DNA of 64,000 nucleotides from Rhodospirillales bacterium (lineage in GTDB: Bacteria; Pseudomonadota; Alphaproteobacteria; TMED109). Shown in pieces: positions 14,618 to 25,327 of the stretch; the stretch's first letter is position 1, and each line of letters begins with the position of its first letter. The position numbers and the translations under genes were made by a program. The stretch spans positions 62,001 through 126,000 of the forward strand of contig JAPPED010000026.1 of NCBI GenBank assembly GCA_028824295.1, in the 5' to 3' direction. Below the pieces are notes generated by a model, which did not search any database, was not told the DNA's origin, and was given only the letters and a program-made list of their open reading frames with translations.

Positions 14618-15805
14618 TCAGCCGTGCTCGTCGAGCGGAATCTCCCGCAACTTGCCGCCATCCACGCCCAGCGCGATGCGCCCTTCGCAGAGTGCCGCCG
14701 CCCGTTCCCCGAACACCCGGTTTCGCCAGCCCCGAAACGCCGCCATGTCCCGGTCACCGGCCGCAATGCGATCCAGCTCCTCCGTGCTCGCCAGCAGCTT
14801 CGGCGCGATGCCGTGCTCGGCCGCCACTTGGCGAATAAGCGCACGCAGTAGTACGGCGGCCGCGGGCGACTTGTGTCTTGACTTTGGACGGCTTTCGGCC
14901 TTCGGAAGCGTCGCTGCCCGACCTTCCCGCACGGCTTCCAGGAGCCTGCTGCCGGTCCGGCCCCGCGCGACCGTCTCCGAAACGCCCCTGATCTCCGCGA
15001 GTTCGCCCGCGCTGGAAGGGCCGGTTCGTGCTATCTGCACCAGCGCCTCGTCTGACAAGATCCAACGCCGCGGGCGATCCGCCTTCTTGGCCATCTCTTC
15101 CCGTGCCGCCGCCAGGAACTGAGCGACCAGCTGCTGTCGGGGCGGCAACGGCGGGAGCTTGGCCCGTCGCCACGCCTCTTCCGCCCGGAGCCGGTACGAG
15201 TCCGGGTCCGTCAGCGACTCCATCTCCTCGTCAAGCCACTCCCAGCGGTCCGCCTCGTCAAGCCGGTCGGCGAGCTTTTGGTAGATGGCCGGCAAGTGGG
15301 TCACGTCCGCAAGCGCATAGGCCAATTGAGCCGGCGACAGGGGCCGGCGCGACCAGTCGGTGTAGCGATCTGCCTTGCTGATTGTCACACCCGCGATGGC
15401 CTGCGCAAGGCTTGCGTAGCTGGCCGCTTCCCCGTAGCCGCACGCCATTGCCGCCACCTGCGTATCGAACAGGGGCGTGGGTACGCGGCCAGTCGCCAGA
15501 AAGAAGATGCCGACGTCCTGGCGGCAGGCGTGGAACACCTTGATCGGCGGCGCCTCGTTCAGCAGGCGATAAAGCGGTTCAAGGTCCAACTCGGCCAGGG
15601 CGTCGACCGCGTGCCCCTCGCCGTCCGAGCCGGCGAGCTGTACCAGGCACAGTTTCGGCCAGAACGTCTGGCCGCTCAGAAACTCTGTATCGACGCAGAT
15701 GAACGGCTCATCGGCGAGATGTTCGCAAAGCCGTTCGAGTTCGGCCGTCTCACTGATCAGCAGGTCCCGGGCAGAAGGGTGCCGCCGACCGCTCCGAGAC
15801 TTCAA
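14618..15805 (-). CDS. rnd: Ribonuclease D
   Basis: 3'-5' exoribonuclease of tRNA and small RNA maturation. DEDD motifs are visible: FICVDTEFLSG (Exo I), then KVFHACRQDVGIF (Exo II) and the SPAQLAYALADVTHL segment (Exo III, Tyr form), followed by two HRDC-like helical regions. The start is uncertain. The frame is open without a stop to 16033, but homology-like sequence begins only at LLISETAELERLC (about 15763). I chose a TTG at 15805 with a GGGGTG upstream, giving 395 residues. Convergent with ppx; overlaps nothing. Confidence 0.88.
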   Translation of the reverse strand: MKSRSGRRHPSARDLLISETAELERLCEHLADEPFICVDTEFLSGQTFWPKLCLVQLAGSDGEGHAVDALAELDLEPLYRLLNEAPPIKVFHACRQDVGIFFLATGRVPTPLFDTQVAAMACGYGEAASYASLAQAIAGVTISKADRYTDWSRRPLSPAQLAYALADVTHLPAIYQKLADRLDEADRWEWLDEEMESLTDPDSYRLRAEEAWRRAKLPPLPPRQQLVAQFLAAAREEMAKKADRPRRWILSDEALVQIARTGPSSAGELAEIRGVSETVARGRTGSRLLEAVREGRAATLPKAESRPKSRHKSPAAAVLLRALIRQVAAEHGIAPKLLASTEELDRIAAGDRDMAAFRGWRNRVFGERAAALCEGRIALGVDGGKLREIPLDEHG

Positions 15806-15923
15806 GGCGAGCGCACCCCAACCAGTGCTTGATCCGATGCTGCTGCCAATGGGCCCAGAACCGTACACGCGAGATGAGGGACGTTTGCCCGGCCGCAGTT
15901 TCCTCGGCGCCCACCGGCATGTG

Positions 15924-16289
15924 TCATGACGGAACCGTCCACCATCCCAGGTCCTCCTGGGCCCGGGCGCCGGCGTCCCAACGAGCGGGGTGCGCCGGGG
16001 GCCGAATCGAATTCGCGGTGGTTCGGTGTTCAATCCCCGTGTCCAGCCATGGCACCGCCCCCGGAAGGGGCCGCGGCAGATGCATCCGAGCGTCGGTCAG
16101 GAGCTGATCGCAGACATCAGTCCCGGGCGCGGCGGGGGCAGCCGCCGTGCCGCCCATCAACCGCAGCGCGGCCGGAATCGGCGGGCGGGCGAATCCCACC
16201 GCCCTCCGGAGCAGGAACCCGTCACCATCCGCCGGTGCGACCCACACTCGGCGCCGTTCGGAGCGGTCACTGATCTGGACAAGCCGCAC
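15924..16289 (-). pseudogene. Remnant of an AraD1-family (FAH-like) protein, N-terminal part only
   Basis: A minus-strand frame from a GTG at 16289 reads MRLVQISDRSERRRVWVAP, which closely resembles the start of AraD1/fumarylacetoacetate-hydrolase-family proteins (MRLVQFRD...GRRRV in my recollection). Further on, QLLTDARMHLP and VPWLDTGIEHRTTAN resemble the family's later ARLLPP and TGTGLTH segments, with insertions and lost spacing. Everything after about residue 90 is missing; the frame ends 119 bases from the proposed rnd start. AraD1 proteins act in acid-sugar catabolism, matching the genes that follow. Identification is by eye from short matches; a random GC-rich frame is the alternative. 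Confidence 0.4.
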
Positions 16290-16445
16290 GACTCAACATA
16301 GGCCGTTGCCAAGCACCGTTGCAAGCTTGGACGCCTGTCGGCGCCTGCAGGCTGGGTCCCGGTCCCTATCATCATCGGGCGCGCCGAACCGGTCGGCTGC
16401 GGCAGTTCCCGAGACCCGGGCAGGTGGGTCTCCGGTGTCGCCGCG

Positions 16446-17504
16446 CTATCCATCCGGCCGATCCCATGCCACGCCGTCGAATTGGCAAACGAAGTCAGCG
16501 CCGTAGGCCAAGGAAGGCGTCTGGTAACCGAGCCTGACGTCGCCCTGCAGGACCCGCGCGGCAATGGCGACCACTGCGGCCGCGGTGAACCCGTACGGAT
16601 CGGCCACGCGCAGGCGTGACGTCACGCGTTCACCGTCGGCATCCTCGATCTCGGCCACGAAAGTGGCATGACTGGTCCGTCGCTCCCGTTCGCCGGGGCC
16701 GGCCGGCCCTTGCCGGATCACCGCGTCCAGCAGCCTCCGCGGCCACCGCATGGTCAGCAACCCCCCGAACCGCCGCGCCGTCCACATCAGCAGTTCGACC
16801 GGTCGGGACGTCTGGCTGTAGGTTTCGATATTGGCGATTCCGGTCGACCGATAAGCGGTGGCGACATCGCCCAGCACGCTGACCAAGGCGGTGTTCGGCC
16901 CCTCCCCGAAGTCAAAGTCGTGACGGAGGCTGCCGGCCTCGACCCGCACGATCGCACCGTCGCGTCGAATGCGAAAATTGTCGAGGCCGTCAAGGACCGT
17001 GCGCAACGTGCCCTGGGAGAAACCGCTGTGGGCTGCGAGGCCGAGCCGGAGACATCGACCGCCGGGATTCCGCGCTGCCAGGTCGGCGATCAGGCAATCG
17101 CTCGGCAAGACGTCACATCCTGCGCCCGGCAGGACCATGATCTTCGCCTGCCTAGCCGCGGCATCACAGGCCGCCAATGCTTCGAAGACCGCCAGTTCCC
17201 CCGTAATGTCCAGGTAGTGCGTCCCTGTCTTGCAGCACGCTTCGACCACCGGTTGGGCCGTGCGCGAGAACGGCCCCGCACAGTTCACAAGCACGGTGAT
17301 GTCCTCCAGGGCGGAGGTCAGCCCATCCGCATCACCCACTGCCACCGTTCGCTTGTCGAGCGTCGACCACCGGGTCAGCGCAGCGAGTTTTTTCGGGCTG
17401 CGTCCCGCCAGCACGGGACGCAGCCCGCCCGTGACAGCCTCAGCCACCACCAACTGGCCGGTGTAGCCCGTAGCGCCGTAGATCATCAATTTCGGCCGCG
17501 ACAT
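16446..17504 (-). CDS. Saccharopine dehydrogenase-like NAD(P)-binding protein
   Basis: A 352-residue protein with an N-terminal Rossmann domain (MIYGATGYTGQLVV, then LAGRSPKKLAAL and VLVNCAGPFSRTAQPVVEACCKTGTHYLDITGE in outline) typical of saccharopine dehydrogenase-like reductases and trans-acting enoyl reductases. The C-terminal half ends in a VADPYGFTAAAVVAIA helix, also seen in that group. Substrate unknown. It is the downstream member of a minus-strand pair with a beta-hydroxyacid dehydrogenase 164 bases upstream, inside the patch that separates rnd from aspS. Confidence 0.85.
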   Translation of the reverse strand: MSRPKLMIYGATGYTGQLVVAEAVTGGLRPVLAGRSPKKLAALTRWSTLDKRTVAVGDADGLTSALEDITVLVNCAGPFSRTAQPVVEACCKTGTHYLDITGELAVFEALAACDAAARQAKIMVLPGAGCDVLPSDCLIADLAARNPGGRCLRLGLAAHSGFSQGTLRTVLDGLDNFRIRRDGAIVRVEAGSLRHDFDFGEGPNTALVSVLGDVATAYRSTGIANIETYSQTSRPVELLMWTARRFGGLLTMRWPRRLLDAVIRQGPAGPGERERRTSHATFVAEIEDADGERVTSRLRVADPYGFTAAAVVAIAARVLQGDVRLGYQTPSLAYGADFVCQFDGVAWDRPDG

Positions 17505-17668
17505 CGATCAGCCCCTCTAGGGCGCAGCCGGGAACAGGCCGTCAGTCCGGGCAACCCCGTCCACTGCGCGGTCTGCACTAGGCCGGCACCCACCCACCCG
17601 TTCTGCATGGTTCATCGGCTCGGTCGGGCCCGGCCGCCGGCAGCTCTCGCGTTCCATCGGCCATCCGA

Positions 17669-18583
17669 TCAGTCCGCACCGCCGCGGCCGGAAAAACGTA
17701 CCGGCTCGATGCCGGCGCTCTCGCAGAGAGCATCCAGCAGGGCAGAAAAATCCTGCCCGCCCCAGCCACGCGCCCGGGCGAGGCTAAGGCATTCGCGCGC
17801 CGCCGCCGCAACCGGCATCGGCACGCGGTTGGCATTCGCCGCCTGCGTCACGAGGGATAGGTCCTTGTGGGCGAGATCAATCTGAAACCCCGGCGTGATA
17901 TCGCCCTTGAGAACCTTGGTGGCGTAGTTGATCCGCAATTGACCGTTGGTTGCGGTGGTGCCGTGGAGGACCTCTAGGGTACGTTCCAGATCCAGCCCGA
18001 AGCGGCGCGTGAGCGCAAGCGCCTCCGCGTTGATCTGGCAAAGCGTGATGGCGAGGTAGTTGTTGACCAGCTTGGTGCGAATACCGGTGCCGACCGGGCC
18101 GCAGTGATGAATGGACGTCCCCATTGCTTCCAGCATCGGCCGGATGGCGTTGAACTCGACTTCCTCGGCACCGACCATGAAGAGGCTCTCGCCGGCATCC
18201 GCGTGGCTGGCGAGTCGCCCGATCGGAGCATCGATGCAGTGCATCCCCGAGCTCGCAAGTGCTGCGGCACAGCGATCGGTGACCTCGGGATCAATGGTGC
18301 TCATTTCCACGATGGTGGTGCCGGGTGCAGCGTGTGCGATCAGCCCATCGGGTCCCAGGATGACGCCCTCCACTTCGACGTGCGAAGGAAGACAGGTGAA
18401 GATGGTGCGCGCCTCCTTCGCGACCCCTGCGACGGAGTCCGCTACCGAGGCGCCAAGCTCCGCCAGCGCATCGCACGGCGAACGGGCGATATCAAAGACG
18501 ACAAGCCCAAAACCCTTGCGCTGCAGGTTGGAGGCCATCGGGCGGCCCATCCGCCCCAGCCCAATGAAACCGATCCGGTCCAT
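17669..18583 (-). CDS. Beta-hydroxyacid dehydrogenase, YihU (3-sulfolactaldehyde reductase)-like
   Basis: A 304-residue NAD(P)H-dependent dehydrogenase of the 3-hydroxyisobutyrate family. Seen: cofactor loop GFIGLGRMGRPMA (5-17), catalytic Lys171 in RTKLVNNYL, and the C-terminal DITPGFQIDLAHKDLS. It resembles E. coli YihU more than generic HIBADH: the substrate loop is DAPIGR (118-123) instead of DAPVSGG, numbering is collinear, and YihU's Arg123 and Asn174 (as recalled) are present. The recalled sulfonate-contacting Ser178 is Ala here. It may therefore reduce sulfolactaldehyde, succinic/tartronic semialdehyde or a related acid. No other sulfoglycolysis gene is adjacent. Confidence 0.85.
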   Translation of the reverse strand: MDRIGFIGLGRMGRPMASNLQRKGFGLVVFDIARSPCDALAELGASVADSVAGVAKEARTIFTCLPSHVEVEGVILGPDGLIAHAAPGTTIVEMSTIDPEVTDRCAAALASSGMHCIDAPIGRLASHADAGESLFMVGAEEVEFNAIRPMLEAMGTSIHHCGPVGTGIRTKLVNNYLAITLCQINAEALALTRRFGLDLERTLEVLHGTTATNGQLRINYATKVLKGDITPGFQIDLAHKDLSLVTQAANANRVPMPVAAAARECLSLARARGWGGQDFSALLDALCESAGIEPVRFSGRGGAD

Positions 18584-18860
18584 GCATGTCTCTCCTGGGC
18601 AACATCCCGGGCGGCGCAGCGTAGACGATGGGGCCCCCTGATGCTCCGGAGGTCAGACTGCATCACCGTGGGACCGGGCGTGTCAGGTGGCAGGCCGATG
18701 GACGCGACCGTCCCAGCATCGGTGCGGCAACTAGGGCATGGGCGTCAAGCCGAGTAACCCGGGGCGTGTGGACACCAAATCGCGGAACACAACGTGGAGC
18801 GAAAACTCCGTAAGATTGCGCGGGCGCGACCGAGCGCGACGGACTGTCCGGAAACCCGCA
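18584..18860. other. Divergent intergenic region
   Basis: About 280 bases between the YihU-like gene (minus) and a small membrane protein gene (plus). It should contain both promoters. No recognisable gene, repeat or strong hairpin was seen. Confidence 0.4.
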
Positions 18861-19130
18861 ATGTCAGCTATTTTGCAGCCGCATATTCTCGCCATCGTCA
18901 GTGGCACGATCCTTGCCGCCGGGCTCATCTTGATCTTTTGCGGAAGAATGACGCTGCAGCGGCTGCAGATTCCTGATCGTGAAGACGATACAGCCGGGTT
19001 CGAGAAGGCGGACCGCATCCTGGAGCGAGGAATGTTTCTGTTGCGGGCTGGTGACGTGATCGGCGTGGTGGGCGGCATTTGCGTGATTCTCACCATGCTC
19101 GTCTACGCCGGCATCATCCCAGGTCTCTGA
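18861..19130 (+). CDS. Hypothetical two-helix membrane protein, 89 residues
   Basis: Starts MSAILQPHILAIVSG and has two hydrophobic helices, about residues 8-27 (ending LILIFCG) and 63-84 (VIGVVGGICVILTMLVYAG), separated by a charged loop rich in Asp, Glu and Arg (PDREDDTAGFEKADRILERG). The ATG at 18861 is chosen because sequence before it is Arg-rich and unlike a membrane-protein N-terminus. I do not recognise the family. It lies 214 bases before the acid-sugar dehydratase-like gene and may share its transcript. Confidence 0.6.
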   Translation: MSAILQPHILAIVSGTILAAGLILIFCGRMTLQRLQIPDREDDTAGFEKADRILERGMFLLRAGDVIGVVGGICVILTMLVYAGIIPGL

Positions 19131-19344
19131 CCCGCACCGCAGCGGCGCCGCCGGCCGCGCAGATTGCCGGTGCAGGCGGTCCCGGACTGGTCGGCTGGAT
19201 TCGTCGGCGCGGTCGGACACCGTCTGCCGATATCTGCGCATGGCGGGTCGCAAACCATGACGTAGGATGGGCTCAGAGGACGTCCGCGGCCGGCATGCCC
19301 GCGGACGGACACTGGAACTTCCAATCTGAACGGACTGAATTGCC

Positions 19345-20544
19345 ATGAAGCTCACTGGTTTTGAGATTCTCCACGCGGACGGCGGGTGGCGCGTACTGTC
19401 GTTCCTGAAGGCCACTACCGACGAAGGAATCACCGGCTGGGCGGAGTTCAACGAGAGTTACGGAAGCGCCGGTCTCAGCGCCGTGATCATGGCGCTCGGA
19501 CAACACCTGGTCGGCAAGGACCCACGCCCGGTCGAGCGGCACAGCGCGATGCTGTACGCACGCACTCGCCAGGCTCCCGGAGGTGTCAACCAGCAGGCGA
19601 TTGCCGCCATCGAGAATGCCCTGCTCGACATCAAGGCGCGCGCGTTGGGCGTCCGCGTTTGTGAGCTGTTCGGTGGTCCGGTGCGCGAGGAGCTGCGTCT
19701 TTACTGGTCCCATTGCGGCACGTACCTGCTGGGGCACGCGGACTTGATCGGCCAACCTCCCCTGACCAGTCTCGCCGACGTCGAGACCTTGGGCGCGCGC
19801 GTCCGCGGCGAGGGCTTCACCGCACTCAAGACCAACATATTCCTGTTCGATGGTGAGCGGCCGCAACTCTACATGCCCGGCTTCGGAGTGGGAGCAAGCA
19901 GCCCCCAGCTCTCTCCCGACCTCTCCGTGGAGCGCGCGCTCCGTGCCCAGGTGGAGGCCTTTCGCGCGGGCGCTGGACCGGATGTAGAAATCCTCGTGGA
20001 CCTGAACTTCAACTACCGGCCGGAGGGCTACCGGCGCATCGTCCGGGCCCTTGACGATCTGGGCCTGATGTGGGCCGAAATCGACCTCTTCGACGCGACG
20101 GCACTGGCCGGTATCCGCGAAGCCGTGAGCACGCCGATCGCCTCGTGCGAGTCGCTCTACCGCCGGCGTGAATTCAAGCCGTTCTTCGAACGCCGCGCCG
20201 TCGATGTCTGCATCATCGACGTGGTCTGGAACGGCCTCGCCGAAAGCCTCAAGATCGCGACCATGGCGGATGCGTACGAAATCAACGTCGCGCCGCACAA
20301 CTTCTATGGACATCTCTCGACGCTGCACAGCGCGCACTTCTCGGCCACCGTCCCGAACTTCCGGGTGATGGAAATCGACATCGACGAGGTTCCGTGGAAG
20401 GATGACTTGGTAACGACCGTGCCCGTCATCCGGGACGGCAAGCTGGTGCTGCCCAAGGAGCCTGGCTGGGGCACGGAAGTCAACGAAGAAGCCGTTCGTG
20501 CGCACCCGCCGCGGCCGAGCACGGACCGGCATTGGACGAACTAG
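19345..20544 (+). CDS. Enolase-superfamily (mandelate racemase/muconate lactonizing) acid-sugar dehydratase-like enzyme
   Basis: A 399-residue cytosolic enzyme of the enolase superfamily, which abstracts the alpha-proton of carboxylate substrates. The three Mg ligands are readable: Asp219 (VDLNF), Glu245 (WAEID) and Glu269 (SCESLY). His318 in APHNFYGH fits the C-terminal general base. At the usual KxK site it has KTN (162-164). This pattern points to acid-sugar dehydratases and not muconate cycloisomerases; the exact sugar cannot be told. It sits beside a YihU-like dehydrogenase, consistent with an acid-sugar or sulfo-sugar route. Start ATG 19345. Confidence 0.87.
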   Translation: MKLTGFEILHADGGWRVLSFLKATTDEGITGWAEFNESYGSAGLSAVIMALGQHLVGKDPRPVERHSAMLYARTRQAPGGVNQQAIAAIENALLDIKARALGVRVCELFGGPVREELRLYWSHCGTYLLGHADLIGQPPLTSLADVETLGARVRGEGFTALKTNIFLFDGERPQLYMPGFGVGASSPQLSPDLSVERALRAQVEAFRAGAGPDVEILVDLNFNYRPEGYRRIVRALDDLGLMWAEIDLFDATALAGIREAVSTPIASCESLYRRREFKPFFERRAVDVCIIDVVWNGLAESLKIATMADAYEINVAPHNFYGHLSTLHSAHFSATVPNFRVMEIDIDEVPWKDDLVTTVPVIRDGKLVLPKEPGWGTEVNEEAVRAHPPRPSTDRHWTN

Positions 20545-20569
20545 GGGCGGCCCCGGTTCCCGGTCTGCA

Positions 20570-20587
20570 GCCGCCACCGGTGGCGGC
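20570..20587. terminator. Terminator-like GC palindrome after the dehydratase-like gene
   Basis: A perfect 18-base palindrome with arms GCCGCC/GGCGGC around ACCGGT, 26 bases after the stop at 20544 and 62 bases before aspS. No T-run follows, so a Rho-independent role is only suggested. Confidence 0.4.
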
Positions 20588-20649
20588 AGTGCCCGACAGC
20601 CCTATCATCGGCGCGCCCTAGCAGCGGACGGCCCACGGGAAACCTCGCC

Positions 20650-22431
20650 ATGCATCCGTACCGGACCCACAACTGCGGCGAACTCCGCGCCGAACACGTC
20701 GGCACGACCGTGCGCCTGTCGGGATGGGTGCACTCGAAACGTGATCACGGCGGGCTGCTGTTCGTGGATCTTCGCGACCACTACGGCTTGACCCAGATCG
20801 TGGTGGCCGGCGATGCCGAATTCTTCGCCGCCGTTGAATCCGTACGTGTCGAAAGCGTGGTGACCGTCACCGGGCCGGTCGTCGCCCGTTCGGAGGACAC
20901 GGTGAATCCAACGCTGGCGACGGGGGACGTGGAAGTCCGGATCCAGACATTCAACGTTGAATCGCCTGCTGCAACGCTGCCGCTCCAGGTGGCGGGCGGG
21001 CAGGATGCCGGCGAATCGGTCCGTCTCGCGTACCGGTTCCTGGACCTCCGTCGCGAGAAGATGCAGCGGAACCTGCGCCTGCGAGCCGATGTCATCGCAA
21101 TGATCCGTCGGCGCATGACCGAACAGGGCTTCCTCGAGATCCAGACACCCATCCTCACTGCGTCTTCACCGGAAGGCGCTCGAGACTTTCTGGTCCCGAG
21201 TCGCTTGCATCCTGGACAGTTCTATGCCCTGCCGCAGGCTCCACAGCAGTTCAAGCAGCTTCTGATGACCTCGGGCTTCGACCGCTACTTCCAGATTGCT
21301 CCCTGCTTCCGAGACGAAGATGCCCGGGCCGACCGAAGTCCCGGAGAGTTCTATCAGCTCGATGTCGAGCTGGCGTTCGCAACGCAGGATGACGTGTTCG
21401 AAGCCGTAGAGCCGCTCCTCCGCGACGTGTTCGCCGAACATGGAAGCCGACCCGTTGCTGGCGGCAGCTTCCCGAGGATCGCGTGGCGTGACGCGATGCT
21501 GCGCTACGGAACCGACAAGCCCGACCTTCGAAACCCGCTGGAAATCGCCGACATTACCGCTGCGTTCGAGCTCGATGGCGTCACGTTCCGCGCATTCCGG
21601 AGCCAAATCGAAAAGGGAGCCGTCGTGCGCGGCATTCCTGCCCCGAACGCAGCCCAGCGTCCAAGGAGCTTTTTCGACGGGCTCAATCGCTGGGCCCGAG
21701 AGCAGGGCGCGGCCGGGCTTGGCTACGTCATCTACGACGACGAGGGCGGCAAGGGCCCGATTGCGAAGTTTCTGGTTCCCGAAGCCGAAGCAGCGATTCG
21801 CGATGCGACCGGGGCTGGCCCCGGAGACGCTGTCTTCTTCGTGTGCGACCAGCCCGCCCGGGCGGCAACCTTCGCGGGCGTAGCCCGCACCAAGCTCGGC
21901 GAGGAACTCGATCTGATCGATGACAGCGCATTTCGTTTCTGCTGGACCGTAGATTTTCCGATGTACGAGCGTGACGCGGACACGGGCAAGATCGAGTTCA
22001 GCCACAATCCGTTCTCGATGCCCCAAGGGGGCCTTGAAGCACTGGAAACTGCGGCCGATCCGGAAGACATCCTGGCCTGGCAGTACGACATCGTCTGCAA
22101 CGGCGTCGAACTCTCCTCCGGAGCCATCCGAAACCACCGGCCAGACATCATGATCAAGGCGTTCGCCATCGCCGGATACAGCCTGGACGAACTTGAGCGG
22201 CGTTTCCCCGCCCTGCTTCAGGCATTCCGCTACGGCGCTCCGCCGCACGGCGGCATCGCTCCCGGCATTGACCGGATCGTGATGCTGCTGGCCGACGAGC
22301 CGAACATCCGAGAAGTCATCCCGTTTCCATTGAACCAGCAAGCGGAAGACCTGCTGATGGGCGCGCCGGGGCCGGTCTCCGCCCAGCAGCTCCGGGAAGT
22401 CCATCTCCGCGCCGTCACGCCGCCAGCGTAA
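20650..22431 (+). CDS. aspS: Aspartyl-tRNA synthetase, probably non-discriminating (AspRS/AsnRS-type)
   Basis: Class IIb synthetase of 593 residues in the bacterial layout: N-terminal OB fold, catalytic core, inserted GAD domain, motif 3 ([14 protein letters not shown]). Motif 2 is in [17 protein letters not shown]. The anticodon-domain loop reads KRDHGGLLF with His33; in P. aeruginosa the equivalent His31 marks AspRS that also charges tRNA-Asn, whereas discriminating enzymes have Leu. This implies that Asn-tRNA is made by GatCAB amidation (inference). Start ATG 20650. In related genomes aspS lies close to rnd (recalled); here about 5 kb of accessory genes intervene. Confidence 0.96.
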
Positions 22432-22550
22432 CGGCGGCCACGTTGTCTGTTCAGCAGGCCGCTACCATATACTTCGGAGCGTAATCGCTTGCGGTCGCGA
22501 TCCGAATCGCGCGCTTGCGCAGCCCTGTCAAATTTTCTGGGAGCGTGCCC

Positions 22551-23330: not shown

Positions 23331-23369
23331 CGGCCACTCGGCGCTTCCCGACGGAAGCGCCGTTGGCCG
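23331..23369 (+). terminator. Terminator-like hairpin after the BI-1 gene
   Basis: Perfect 10-bp stem (23339-23348 with 23353-23362, CGGCGCTTCC and its complement) closed by CGAC, extended by outer arms CGGCCA/TGGCCG (23331-23336, 23364-23369). It begins 36 bases after the BI-1 stop. No immediate T-run. Confidence 0.6.
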
Positions 23370-23428
23370 GGGCTTGCCGAGCAATCTTTCTGCCTATCGT
23401 TGACGAGTTCGCTCCGGGGAGGACTGGC

Positions 23429-25327
23429 ATGTCCGGTTCGTATGAGGCGCTCTACCAGGGCTGGGTGGCTGACATGGAAGCGTTCTGGGCCGAGCGGGTT
23501 CCCCTGCTCGACTGGAGCCGGGCCCCGAGTCGCATGCTGGACGCCGACGAGCCGCCCTTCTACCGCTGGTTCCCGGACGGCGAACTGAACACTTGTCACA
23601 ATTGCCTGGACCGGCATGTCGAGGCAGGCCACGGCAACCGCCCGGCGCTGATCTACGACAGTCCCGTAACCGGAACCCAGCAAACCTTCACGTTTGGCGA
23701 ACTGCTCGACTGCGCGGCCCGCGCGGCCGGCGCGTTTCGTGATCTCGGTGTCGACCAAGGGGATCGCGTCTTGATCTACATGCCGATGATCCCTGAAGCG
23801 GTGATCGCAATGCTGGCCTGTGCCCGCATCGGCGCCGTTCACTCAGTGGTATTCGGAGGGTTCGCAGCGCCCGAGCTTGCTTCCCGGATCGACGATGCAA
23901 CCCCCAAGCTCGTGGTCGCGGGAAGTTGTGGGATCGAGCCGAATCGCATCGTGGCCTACAAGCCGATGCTGGACCAGGCATTGGAGTTGGCTGAGCACGC
24001 TCCGGCCCACTGCCTGGTCAAGCAGCGGCAAGCTTCGCCGGCCACCATGATCGAGGGCCGCGATCTGGATTGGGACCAGGCGCTCGCGACTGCCGACCGC
24101 GCGGACTGCGTGACAGTTTCTGCCGTCGACCCACTGTACATCCTCTATACGTCAGGCACGACCGGCGACCCCAAGGGCATCGTCCGGGACCAAGGCGGGC
24201 ACGCTGTGGCGTTGGCCAACAGTATGGCGATGACCTACGGACTCCGTCCCGGCGAAGTGTTCTGGGCCGCTTCCGACGTCGGGTGGGTGGTAGGGCATTC
24301 CTACATCGTCTATGCGCCGCTTCTCCACGGCTGCGCCAGCATTCTCTATGAAGGCAAACCCGTGGGTACACCTGACGCTGGCGCTTTCTGGCGCGTGATT
24401 TCCGAGCACAATGTCTCGGTGCTGTTTACGGCCCCAACGGCGTTCCGGGCAATCCGACGGGCGGACCCCGAAGCAAAGCTTCTGCAAGCGTACGACCTCA
24501 ACAGTTTTCGCGCCCTTTTTCTGGCCGGGGAACGGGCCGATCCCGACACCGTCCGCTGGGCCGAAAAGGTCTTGGGGGTTCCGGTATTCGACCATTGGTG
24601 GCAAACGGAAACCGGCTGGTCGATCACCGGCTACTTTGCGGGAACCCAAGGTTTTTCGGTACGCCCCGGCTCAGCCGGCAAGCCGGCGCCAGGGTACGCC
24701 CTGAAAGTGCTGGATGACGACGGGCAGGCGGTTCCGGCCGGTGAAATCGGGGCCCTCGTCGCGAGATTGCCGATGCCGCCCGGCTTTAGTCCGACCCTAT
24801 GGGGCAATCAGGAACGTTTTCGCAAGGTCTATCTGGACGTGTTTCCCGGCTACTACAGCACCGCCGACGCCGGAATGATCGATGAGGACGGTTACGTGTG
24901 GGTCATGGCGCGGACCGACGACATCATCAATTGCGCGGGACACCGGTTATCCACGGGTGCCATGGAAGAAGTTCTGACCCAGCATGCAGACGTCGCCGAA
25001 TGCGCCGTCGTAGGAGTGCACGATCGCCTCAAGGGACAAGTTCCGATCGGCTTGCTGGTGCTCAATGCCGGCGTGACCCGGGAGTCGGATGCGATCGCCG
25101 CCGAGACCGTGCAAATGGTACGTGATGCGATCGGCGCAGTTGCGTCCTTTCGGACGGCCGCTGTCGTACAGCAGCTTCCCAAGACGCGCTCAGGCAAGAT
25201 TCTGAGAAATGTCATTGCGGCAATCGCGGACGGGCGAACTCCGAAGGTCCCGCCGACGATCGAGGATCCGTCCGTCCTTGACGGCATCAAGTCCGCACTG
25301 GGAGCCGTTGGCTTGCCTCACCAATAG
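23429..25327 (+). CDS. prpE: Propionyl-CoA synthetase-like acyl-CoA synthetase
   Basis: AMP-forming acyl-CoA synthetase of 632 residues. The A3 loop YILYTSGTTGDPKGIVRD followed by Gly-Gly-His is the PrpE/ACSS3 form and not that of acetate-specific Acs. WWQTETGW (A5), YYSTADAGMIDEDGY (A7), DDIINCAGHRLSTG (A8) and the catalytic Lys in TRSGKILR (A10) are intact. It activates propionate, and probably acetate, for entry to central metabolism. ATG 23429 follows a GGGGAGG ribosome-binding site. The Nudix gene starts 6 bases after its stop, so the two are one unit. Confidence 0.92.
   Translation: MSGSYEALYQGWVADMEAFWAERVPLLDWSRAPSRMLDADEPPFYRWFPDGELNTCHNCLDRHVEAGHGNRPALIYDSPVTGTQQTFTFGELLDCAARAAGAFRDLGVDQGDRVLIYMPMIPEAVIAMLACARIGAVHSVVFGGFAAPELASRIDDATPKLVVAGSCGIEPNRIVAYKPMLDQALELAEHAPAHCLVKQRQASPATMIEGRDLDWDQALATADRADCVTVSAVDPLYILYTSGTTGDPKGIVRDQGGHAVALANSMAMTYGLRPGEVFWAASDVGWVVGHSYIVYAPLLHGCASILYEGKPVGTPDAGAFWRVISEHNVSVLFTAPTAFRAIRRADPEAKLLQAYDLNSFRALFLAGERADPDTVRWAEKVLGVPVFDHWWQTETGWSITGYFAGTQGFSVRPGSAGKPAPGYALKVLDDDGQAVPAGEIGALVARLPMPPGFSPTLWGNQERFRKVYLDVFPGYYSTADAGMIDEDGYVWVMARTDDIINCAGHRLSTGAMEEVLTQHADVAECAVVGVHDRLKGQVPIGLLVLNAGVTRESDAIAAETVQMVRDAIGAVASFRTAAVVQQLPKTRSGKILRNVIAAIADGRTPKVPPTIEDPSVLDGIKSALGAVGLPHQ

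Follow-up and report, generated by a model that had tools for sequence, protein, structure and literature searches.

The window analysed here is a stretch of 64,000 nucleotides from a Rhodospirillales bacterium (GenBank assembly GCA_028824295.1, contig JAPPED010000026.1, positions 62,001 to 126,000 of the forward strand). The source genome comprises 35 contigs (3.02 Mb), and its nearest named records, judged by the enolase-superfamily protein described below (92-99% identity), were uncultured Alphaproteobacteria or Rhodospirillales bins. Within the window, an island of about 4.8 kb separates rnd from aspS and carries four genes, which encode a saccharopine-dehydrogenase-like (sacDH-like) reductase, a YihU-like dehydrogenase, a small protein and an enolase-superfamily enzyme. 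The pair on the left is read with rnd (minus strand) and the pair on the right with aspS (plus strand). The features are as follows, in window coordinates:

14618-15832, minus strand: rnd (ribonuclease D), left flank; TIGR01388, 335 bits against a cut-off of 298.95, scored on the frame 14618-16033.
15924-16289, minus strand: open frame labelled an AraD1-like remnant in a preliminary description of the window; no Pfam or NCBIfam match, not shown as a gene.
16190-16345, minus strand: stretch with a block of 75-100 bp kept in 7/7 genus genomes (alignment and probe search).
16446-17504, minus strand: saccharopine-dehydrogenase-like NAD(P) reductase, 352 amino acids; PF03435, 48.3 bits against a cut-off of 25.1.
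17669-18583, minus strand: putative YihU-like beta-hydroxyacid dehydrogenase, 304 amino acids; Pfam, NCBIfam, PDB sequence, motifs and tree.
18861-19130, plus strand: small protein, 89 amino acids, two hydrophobic stretches by eye; conserved in 7/7 genus genomes.
19345-20544, plus strand: enolase-superfamily (mandelate racemase group) enzyme of the 2OO6 family, 399 amino acids; MR_MLE_N/C, 430 bits to 2oo6.
20650-22431, plus strand: aspS, right flank; NF001750, 799.5 bits against a cut-off of 443.

The rnd open frame extends to 16033, and its start position near 15832 is not fixed; the listed open frame of the small protein starts at 18738, and the start at 18861 is a reading from the conserved part. 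The preliminary description had placed the open frames 16446-17504(-), 17669-18583(-) and 19345-20544(+) between rnd and aspS, and all three were found there with matches to the families named. The small protein (about 18861-19130(+)) had not been named. As had also been noticed, no transporter or regulator was found among the scanned frames (ppk, ppx, rnd, the island, aspS and two frames past aspS).

The insertion site was compared in 20 stretches from outside the genus, each containing aspS with up to 6 kb beside it, and distances were taken from tblastn alignment ends. The statement that rnd and aspS are often close held: they were 77-259 bp apart in 12/20 stretches (7 of the 12 from other genera of the same family), and the island at this locus is an accessory insertion. 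A wider gap (0.9 and 1.8 kb) was present in two stretches, rnd was not found in six, and none of the island genes was found in any of the 20. In the window and in six further genus genomes, rnd and aspS are parted by the island, and the YihU-like, small-protein and enolase genes occur in unchanged order in 7/7 genus genomes (window included). Since the island is present in all seven and in none of the 20 stretches outside, its arrival dates back at least to the origin of the genus, as far as this was sampled. The sacDH-like gene was present in 5/7 genus genomes and not found in L029 and L030; because L028, which has it, pairs with L029 in the YihU tree (support 99/84), loss is the simpler reading of this absence, and the gene would be an optional passenger of the island. 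The two wider gaps outside the genus belong to L224 (1.8 kb) and L229 (0.9 kb), from two other families, and the rnd-aspS junction may have received insertions more than once.

Selection was assessed by pairwise ratios of nonsynonymous to synonymous change (dN/dS) between the window genes and six relatives (four for the sacDH-like gene). The values were 0.03-0.09 for the YihU-like gene, 0.01-0.06 for the enolase gene and 0.00-0.13 for the small protein; the flanking genes gave 0.04-0.11 (rnd) and 0.05-0.07 (aspS), and the sacDH-like gene gave 0.18-0.27. No stop codon was found within the aligned copies from the relatives. The island core behaves as a set of functional genes under strong purifying selection, near the level of aspS.

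The YihU-like protein contains PF03446 (NAD_binding_2, 147.5 bits) and PF14833 (NAD_binding_11, 97.6 bits). The resemblance to YihU proposed earlier was borne out: YihU was the best match in NCBIfam (NF012005/PRK15461, 277.1 bits, below the curated cut-off of 348) and among PDB sequences (218 bits; next 177). E. coli YihU (PDB 6SM7), a 3-sulfolactaldehyde reductase, is 41% identical to the window protein over 292 residues and has in common with it the beta-hydroxyacid dehydrogenase domains, Gly-Arg 122-123, Asn-Asn 174-175, GIR-KL and IDLAHKDL. The two differ at position 178 (Ala in the window protein, Ser in YihU) and, unlike the setting of YihU, the island does not contain yihS/T/V genes. 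A predicted structure of the window protein (from seven near-identical sequences) had a predicted local distance difference test score (pLDDT) of 39 and was not used.

The clade around the window protein was represented by 39 rows, eight from the genus, one of these being a copy of the window protein. Gly-Arg 122-123 and Asn-Asn 174-175 were kept in 39/39 rows, as in YihU, and the set was not present in GarR, YgbJ or five other listed relatives from the same genome. Positions 122-123 are Ser-Gly in GarR, YgbJ and 4/5 of these own-genome relatives and Ala-Arg in the fifth; Asn-Asn occurs in 3/5 of them as well, and therefore only the combination of the motifs is telling. At position 178 the clade has Ala (33 rows), Val (4), Ile (1) or Leu (1). 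One own-genome relative, L006, has Ser178 and lacks Gly-Arg, so Ser178 alone is no family marker. The sulfonate is reportedly bound in YihU by Asn174, Ser178 and the Arg123 backbone. Arg123 and Asn174 of this pocket are present in the window protein, with Ser178 replaced by Ala; the pocket Ser occurs in 0/39 clade rows, a warning that resemblance to YihU does not by itself imply sulfoglycolysis in this class. The accessible text of two reviews (PMC12890257, PMC9594981) does not name the triad.

In the tree, YihU and the clade formed a group at 100/99, YihU having a long branch (1.47 changes per column). Five rows were omitted: L133, L168, and three doubles of the E. coli rows (L159, L160 and L161). 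The window protein or its Pfam domain served as the query by which all non-reference rows were gathered, a biased sampling. On these matches, motifs and the tree, the protein is a putative NAD(P)(H)-dependent beta-hydroxyacid dehydrogenase from a clade next to YihU.

Co-occurrence of this clade with ComE-like genes was surveyed in 385 genomes of the class (YihU-like matches at E<=1e-75, ComE-like matches at E<=1e-25). A YihU-like match was found in 28/385 genomes, three of them from the genus, and ComE-like genes in 125/385, nine of these over the curated cut-off. ComE-like genes were present in 26/28 YihU-like-positive genomes versus 99/357 other genomes (Fisher p 6e-12), or in 23/25 YihU-like-positive genomes when the genus was left out (p 1e-10), and the co-occurrence spans 13/14 families (hand count from two lists). 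For a check on genome size, 12 non-genus genomes with a sacDH-like gene (2.0-5.6 Mb) were used: none was in the ComE list, G036 being the only one named as lacking a ComE match, which speaks against size alone as the cause of the link.

The YihU-like loci examined numbered 26 (6 of 41 plasmid records and 20 of 28 genomes), and a ComDE-like pair adjoins the YihU-like gene in three (L148, L149, L198), two of which are annotated plasmid relatives from Methylobacterium and Paracoccus. The neighbours vary among loci, as those of the enolase gene do: aldehyde dehydrogenase and branched-chain ATP-binding cassette (ABC) genes lie nearby on Paracoccus, Variovorax and Azospirillum plasmids, and acyl-CoA dehydrogenase and crotonase genes, with no ComDE pair, in Azospirillum and Sphingobium. 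The window genome has its own ComDE-like pair (L239:8446-9596), 46-52% identical to the three YihU-adjacent pairs. ComDE sulfopyruvate decarboxylase (TIGR03845/TIGR03846) was the best or second-best NCBIfam match for the pairs of L148, L149, L198 and L239; unlike curated ComDE, all eight proteins were below the cut-offs, and they could be another 2-oxoacid decarboxylase.

Directly after the ComDE-like pair lies panC in both of the genus stretches examined, that of the window genome (L239:8446-10490) and that of a second genus genome (L240); panC was near the pair in 0/20 stretches of other genera, several of them short, and this is therefore a local arrangement. A ComE-like match of 115-126 bits was present in 7/7 genus genomes, none over the cut-off. 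PanD was found in 0/7 genus genomes by a search that was positive in 8/14 control genomes. A 2020 study counted putative aspartate decarboxylases in only 37/204 alphaproteobacterial genomes and put forward the degradation of pyrimidines as the chief substitute route (PMC7142369).

PanD not having been found and the pair lying before panC, malonate semialdehyde might be a source of beta-alanine in the genus. This idea can be widened into a speculative scheme, which we hold to be improbable as it stands, in which the YihU-like clade, together with the ComDE-like pair, would make up a two-part module of Alphaproteobacteria that has so far gone unrecognised. The decarboxylase would convert a 2-oxo acid that carries a further acid group (oxaloacetate is a guess; sulfopyruvate is the classical substrate) to an acid semialdehyde, whose redox state would be set by the YihU-like enzyme. 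In the genus, the pair beside panC would make malonate semialdehyde that supplies beta-alanine for coenzyme A, and the YihU-like enzyme next to aspS would balance malonate semialdehyde against 3-hydroxypropionate. The ComDE-like decarboxylase is a testable partner that might help explain beta-alanine in bacteria without PanD, and its link with the YihU-like clade is the part of this analysis most worth following.

The enolase-superfamily assignment made earlier was upheld. The predicted model of the enzyme (pLDDT 92.6) matched the structures 2oo6, 3go2, 3sn0 and 3sn1 most closely (Z 60-61, 1.1-1.4 Å, 50-51% identity), after which the scores drop to Z 48. These are entries of a Burkholderia xenovorans protein (2OO6, 3GO2, 3SN0, 3SN1, 3SN4), deposited as a putative L-alanine-DL-glutamate epimerase; 2oo6 is 51% identical to the window enzyme over 389 aligned residues (Z 60.1, root-mean-square deviation 1.1 Å). 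With 430 bits over the full length and Z 60, the window enzyme falls within the 2OO6 group, for which a literature search found no paper that assigns a function. Residues K162, N164, D219, E245, E269, D292 and H318 were invariant in 32 sequences; we take K162 to be the Lys on strand 2, D219, E245 and E269 the three metal carboxylates, and D292 and H318 the Asp-His dyad. Probably, the window enzyme is catalytically competent and either dehydrates or epimerises a hydroxy acid. Fifteen NCBIfam families matched at E<=0.01 and none over its cut-off, the best being galactonate dehydratase (163.3 against 311 bits).

Homologues of the enolase enzyme (E<=1e-60) were found in 16/97 relatives, own genome included, and nine of the 16 lie outside the genus. 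The enolase loci from outside the genus that were examined numbered 74 (60 with at least 10 kb), drawn from the best 80 of 222 relatives, and a YihU-like or sacDH-like gene was present in 0/74; in L096, a relative at 29% identity lies 8.7 kb from the enolase homologue. The neighbour survey is a sample, as the custom gene caller misses genes and left the anchor uncalled in six loci. Neighbours included CaiB with HMGL-like genes (L031), GMC, GlnD, molybdopterin-dehydrogenase, AMP-binding and ApbA genes, each from one neighbourhood and without a consensus, as well as ABC genes with hydroxyacid dehydrogenases. The enzyme looks like a widespread orphan with no fixed acid-sugar operon.

Taken as a whole, the account that we judge somewhat probable is that a metabolic island was inserted between the divergent genes rnd and aspS no later than the origin of the genus, and was then kept intact. 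The YihU-like enzyme would interconvert a C3 acid semialdehyde and the corresponding hydroxy acid (malonate semialdehyde and 3-hydroxypropionate, or a sulfo-analogue); such a semialdehyde is the most likely substrate, as a best guess, because of the clade, the motifs and the association across genomes with a ComDE-like 2-oxoacid decarboxylase. The enolase-superfamily enzyme would act as a dehydratase or epimerase, and the island genes probably have separate functions that share a site and are not steps of one known pathway. The island is a small accessory one, made of well-known enzyme folds at a precise site.

Several observations weigh against this account. The ComE co-occurrence statistics take no account of relatedness or genome size, and ComE is a broad class (125/385); the pair is not nearby in 23/26 YihU-like loci, and that of the window genome lies on another contig (C11), beside panC. 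YihU stands outside the other 37 clade rows at 91/91, below the firm mark of the tree tool. An enolase relative on a Ponticoccus plasmid lies in a gene run with a different beta-hydroxyacid dehydrogenase, and in L193 an unrelated enolase-superfamily gene has a YihU-like gene nearby. Being together in 7/7 genus genomes, the YihU-like and enolase genes could belong to a joint pathway after all. The preliminary description had named scattering of the genes in close relatives as grounds against its own reading, and this applies in part: outside the genus the homologues examined were not found together, whereas in 7/7 genus genomes they were.

The preliminary description had offered the locus as an acid-sugar or sulfo-sugar patch, and both readings of the island are weakened. 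Under the second, the YihU-like protein would reduce sulfolactaldehyde or oxidise 2,3-dihydroxypropane-1-sulfonate (DHPS), as YihU and DhpA do, and so feed or drain a sulfonate pool. The YihU matches in PDB and NCBIfam and the kept Gly-Arg and Asn-Asn agree with it, as do the two annotated relatives and L198, whose ComDE-like neighbours match sulfopyruvate decarboxylase subunits best in NCBIfam, and the aldehyde dehydrogenase near some YihU-like genes. According to its description, DhpA of Desulfovibrio sp. DF1, an assayed DHPS dehydrogenase that acts on C3-sulfonates in the oxidative direction, is in the same COG as YihU and only 27% identical to it, so low identity does not exclude such a role (PMC6278857). 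However, the 277 bits to YihU are below the curated 348, position 178 is Ala and not the Ser reported for the sulfonate pocket, and every scanned ComDE-like protein was below the curated cut-offs. The search for sulfonate genes covered YihS, Xsc and PF04295 (YihT, YihV, HpsN and transketolase/transaldolase routes were not searched): YihS was found in 0/7 genus genomes, in a search without a positive control; a match to Xsc above the cut-off was present in 0/11 genomes, but also in 0/14 controls. PF04295 occurs in one protein per genus genome, and the one in the window genome has full-length galactarate dehydratase as its nearest match (369 bits against a cut-off of 731) and is not SuyAB-like in length. 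A C3-sulfonate step is therefore, in our estimate, unlikely, if less so than the non-phosphorylative breakdown of acid sugars, in which the enolase enzyme would dehydrate an aldonate or aldarate, with both reductases acting downstream of it. The fold matches below the 2OO6 group do include galactarate, mannonate and galactonate-type enzymes (Z 42-44), and a 53% Ponticoccus relative adjoins kdgD, NADP aldehyde dehydrogenase, ABC transporter and hydroxyacid dehydrogenase genes. Yet the enzyme is below every acid-sugar cut-off of NCBIfam, the sampled relatives have no common acid-sugar partner beside them, and the set of enzymes proposed earlier was not supported: among the scanned island frames there was no FAH/AraD1-type match, no KdgD/KGSADH-type partner and no downstream lyase, dehydratase, 2-keto-3-deoxy-acid or semialdehyde-dehydrogenase gene. 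We consider this acid-sugar reading rather improbable.

Another reading that was weighed takes the island for the remains of a larger operon in decay, in which the AraD1 frame would already be a dead gene and the other genes would be in the course of being lost. The frame 15924-16289 (121 codons) exists, and its first codons resemble the starts of AraD1-type proteins. It had no Pfam match at E<=1, no NCBIfam match at E<=0.01 and, in tblastn with one Azospirillum FAH protein as probe, a best E of 1.1, so the AraD1 label was not sustained. Past the first ~25 codons, no conserved frame was seen by eye in six relatives, and in three more distant relatives the downstream part is mostly missing or unalignable. 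By contrast with this downstream part, 75-100 bp around the frame start (within 16190-16345) are conserved across the genus (six relatives aligned), and a 156-base probe of the block gave a single strong match per genome, at this site, in 7/7 genus genomes. Third-position changes were the most frequent over 24 codons of the block in 6/6 comparisons (L030, with a deletion, left out), with dN/dS of about 0.3 to 0.9. Coding by the block is neither shown nor excluded, and the claim that one gene is decayed is unproven; the block may be a leader, a regulatory element or a fossil 5' end. These third-position changes and the sacDH-like gene not found in 2/7 genus genomes fit decay, but the low dN/dS, the core near aspS, the lack of stops in the relatives' aligned copies and the lack of detectable FAH homology in the frame make it very improbable, and an intact, kept island remains the account that we favour.

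A partial duplication was rejected as the origin of the block, the further matches in the seven genomes being weak and short (E 0.016 or worse). A sigma-70-like pattern was noticed in it by eye (TTGCAA, 18 nt, TATGTT; 8/12 consensus positions), and a consensus scan of 15600-20800, for which at least 9/12 positions were required, gave no promoter-like site. The sacDH-like protein matched Sacchrp_dh_NADP (PF03435), and no saccharopine dehydrogenase C-terminal domain was among its Pfam matches at E<=1. The small protein had no NCBIfam match at E<=0.01 and no Pfam match over the cut-off. The search for known RNAs in the island gave one sub-threshold match only, within aspS (E 0.93).

At L193:1541-3682, a carboxyltransferase-domain (CT_A_B) gene lies between the YihU-like gene and the different enolase-superfamily gene, which is two genes away. 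Elsewhere in the window genome, on contig C23 (L236:7695-12236), the galactarate-dehydratase-like PF04295 protein is encoded beside KduD-like and glyoxylate-reductase-like genes, all below cut-offs; if the genome has an acid-sugar pathway, this locus may be a better candidate for it than the island. Beyond aspS, the 259-amino-acid frame at 22515 had no NCBIfam match at E<=1e-20, and two genes past aspS (23363-25327) the window encodes a propionate/acetate--CoA-ligase-like protein (PrpE, 724 bits, below the cut-off of 955).

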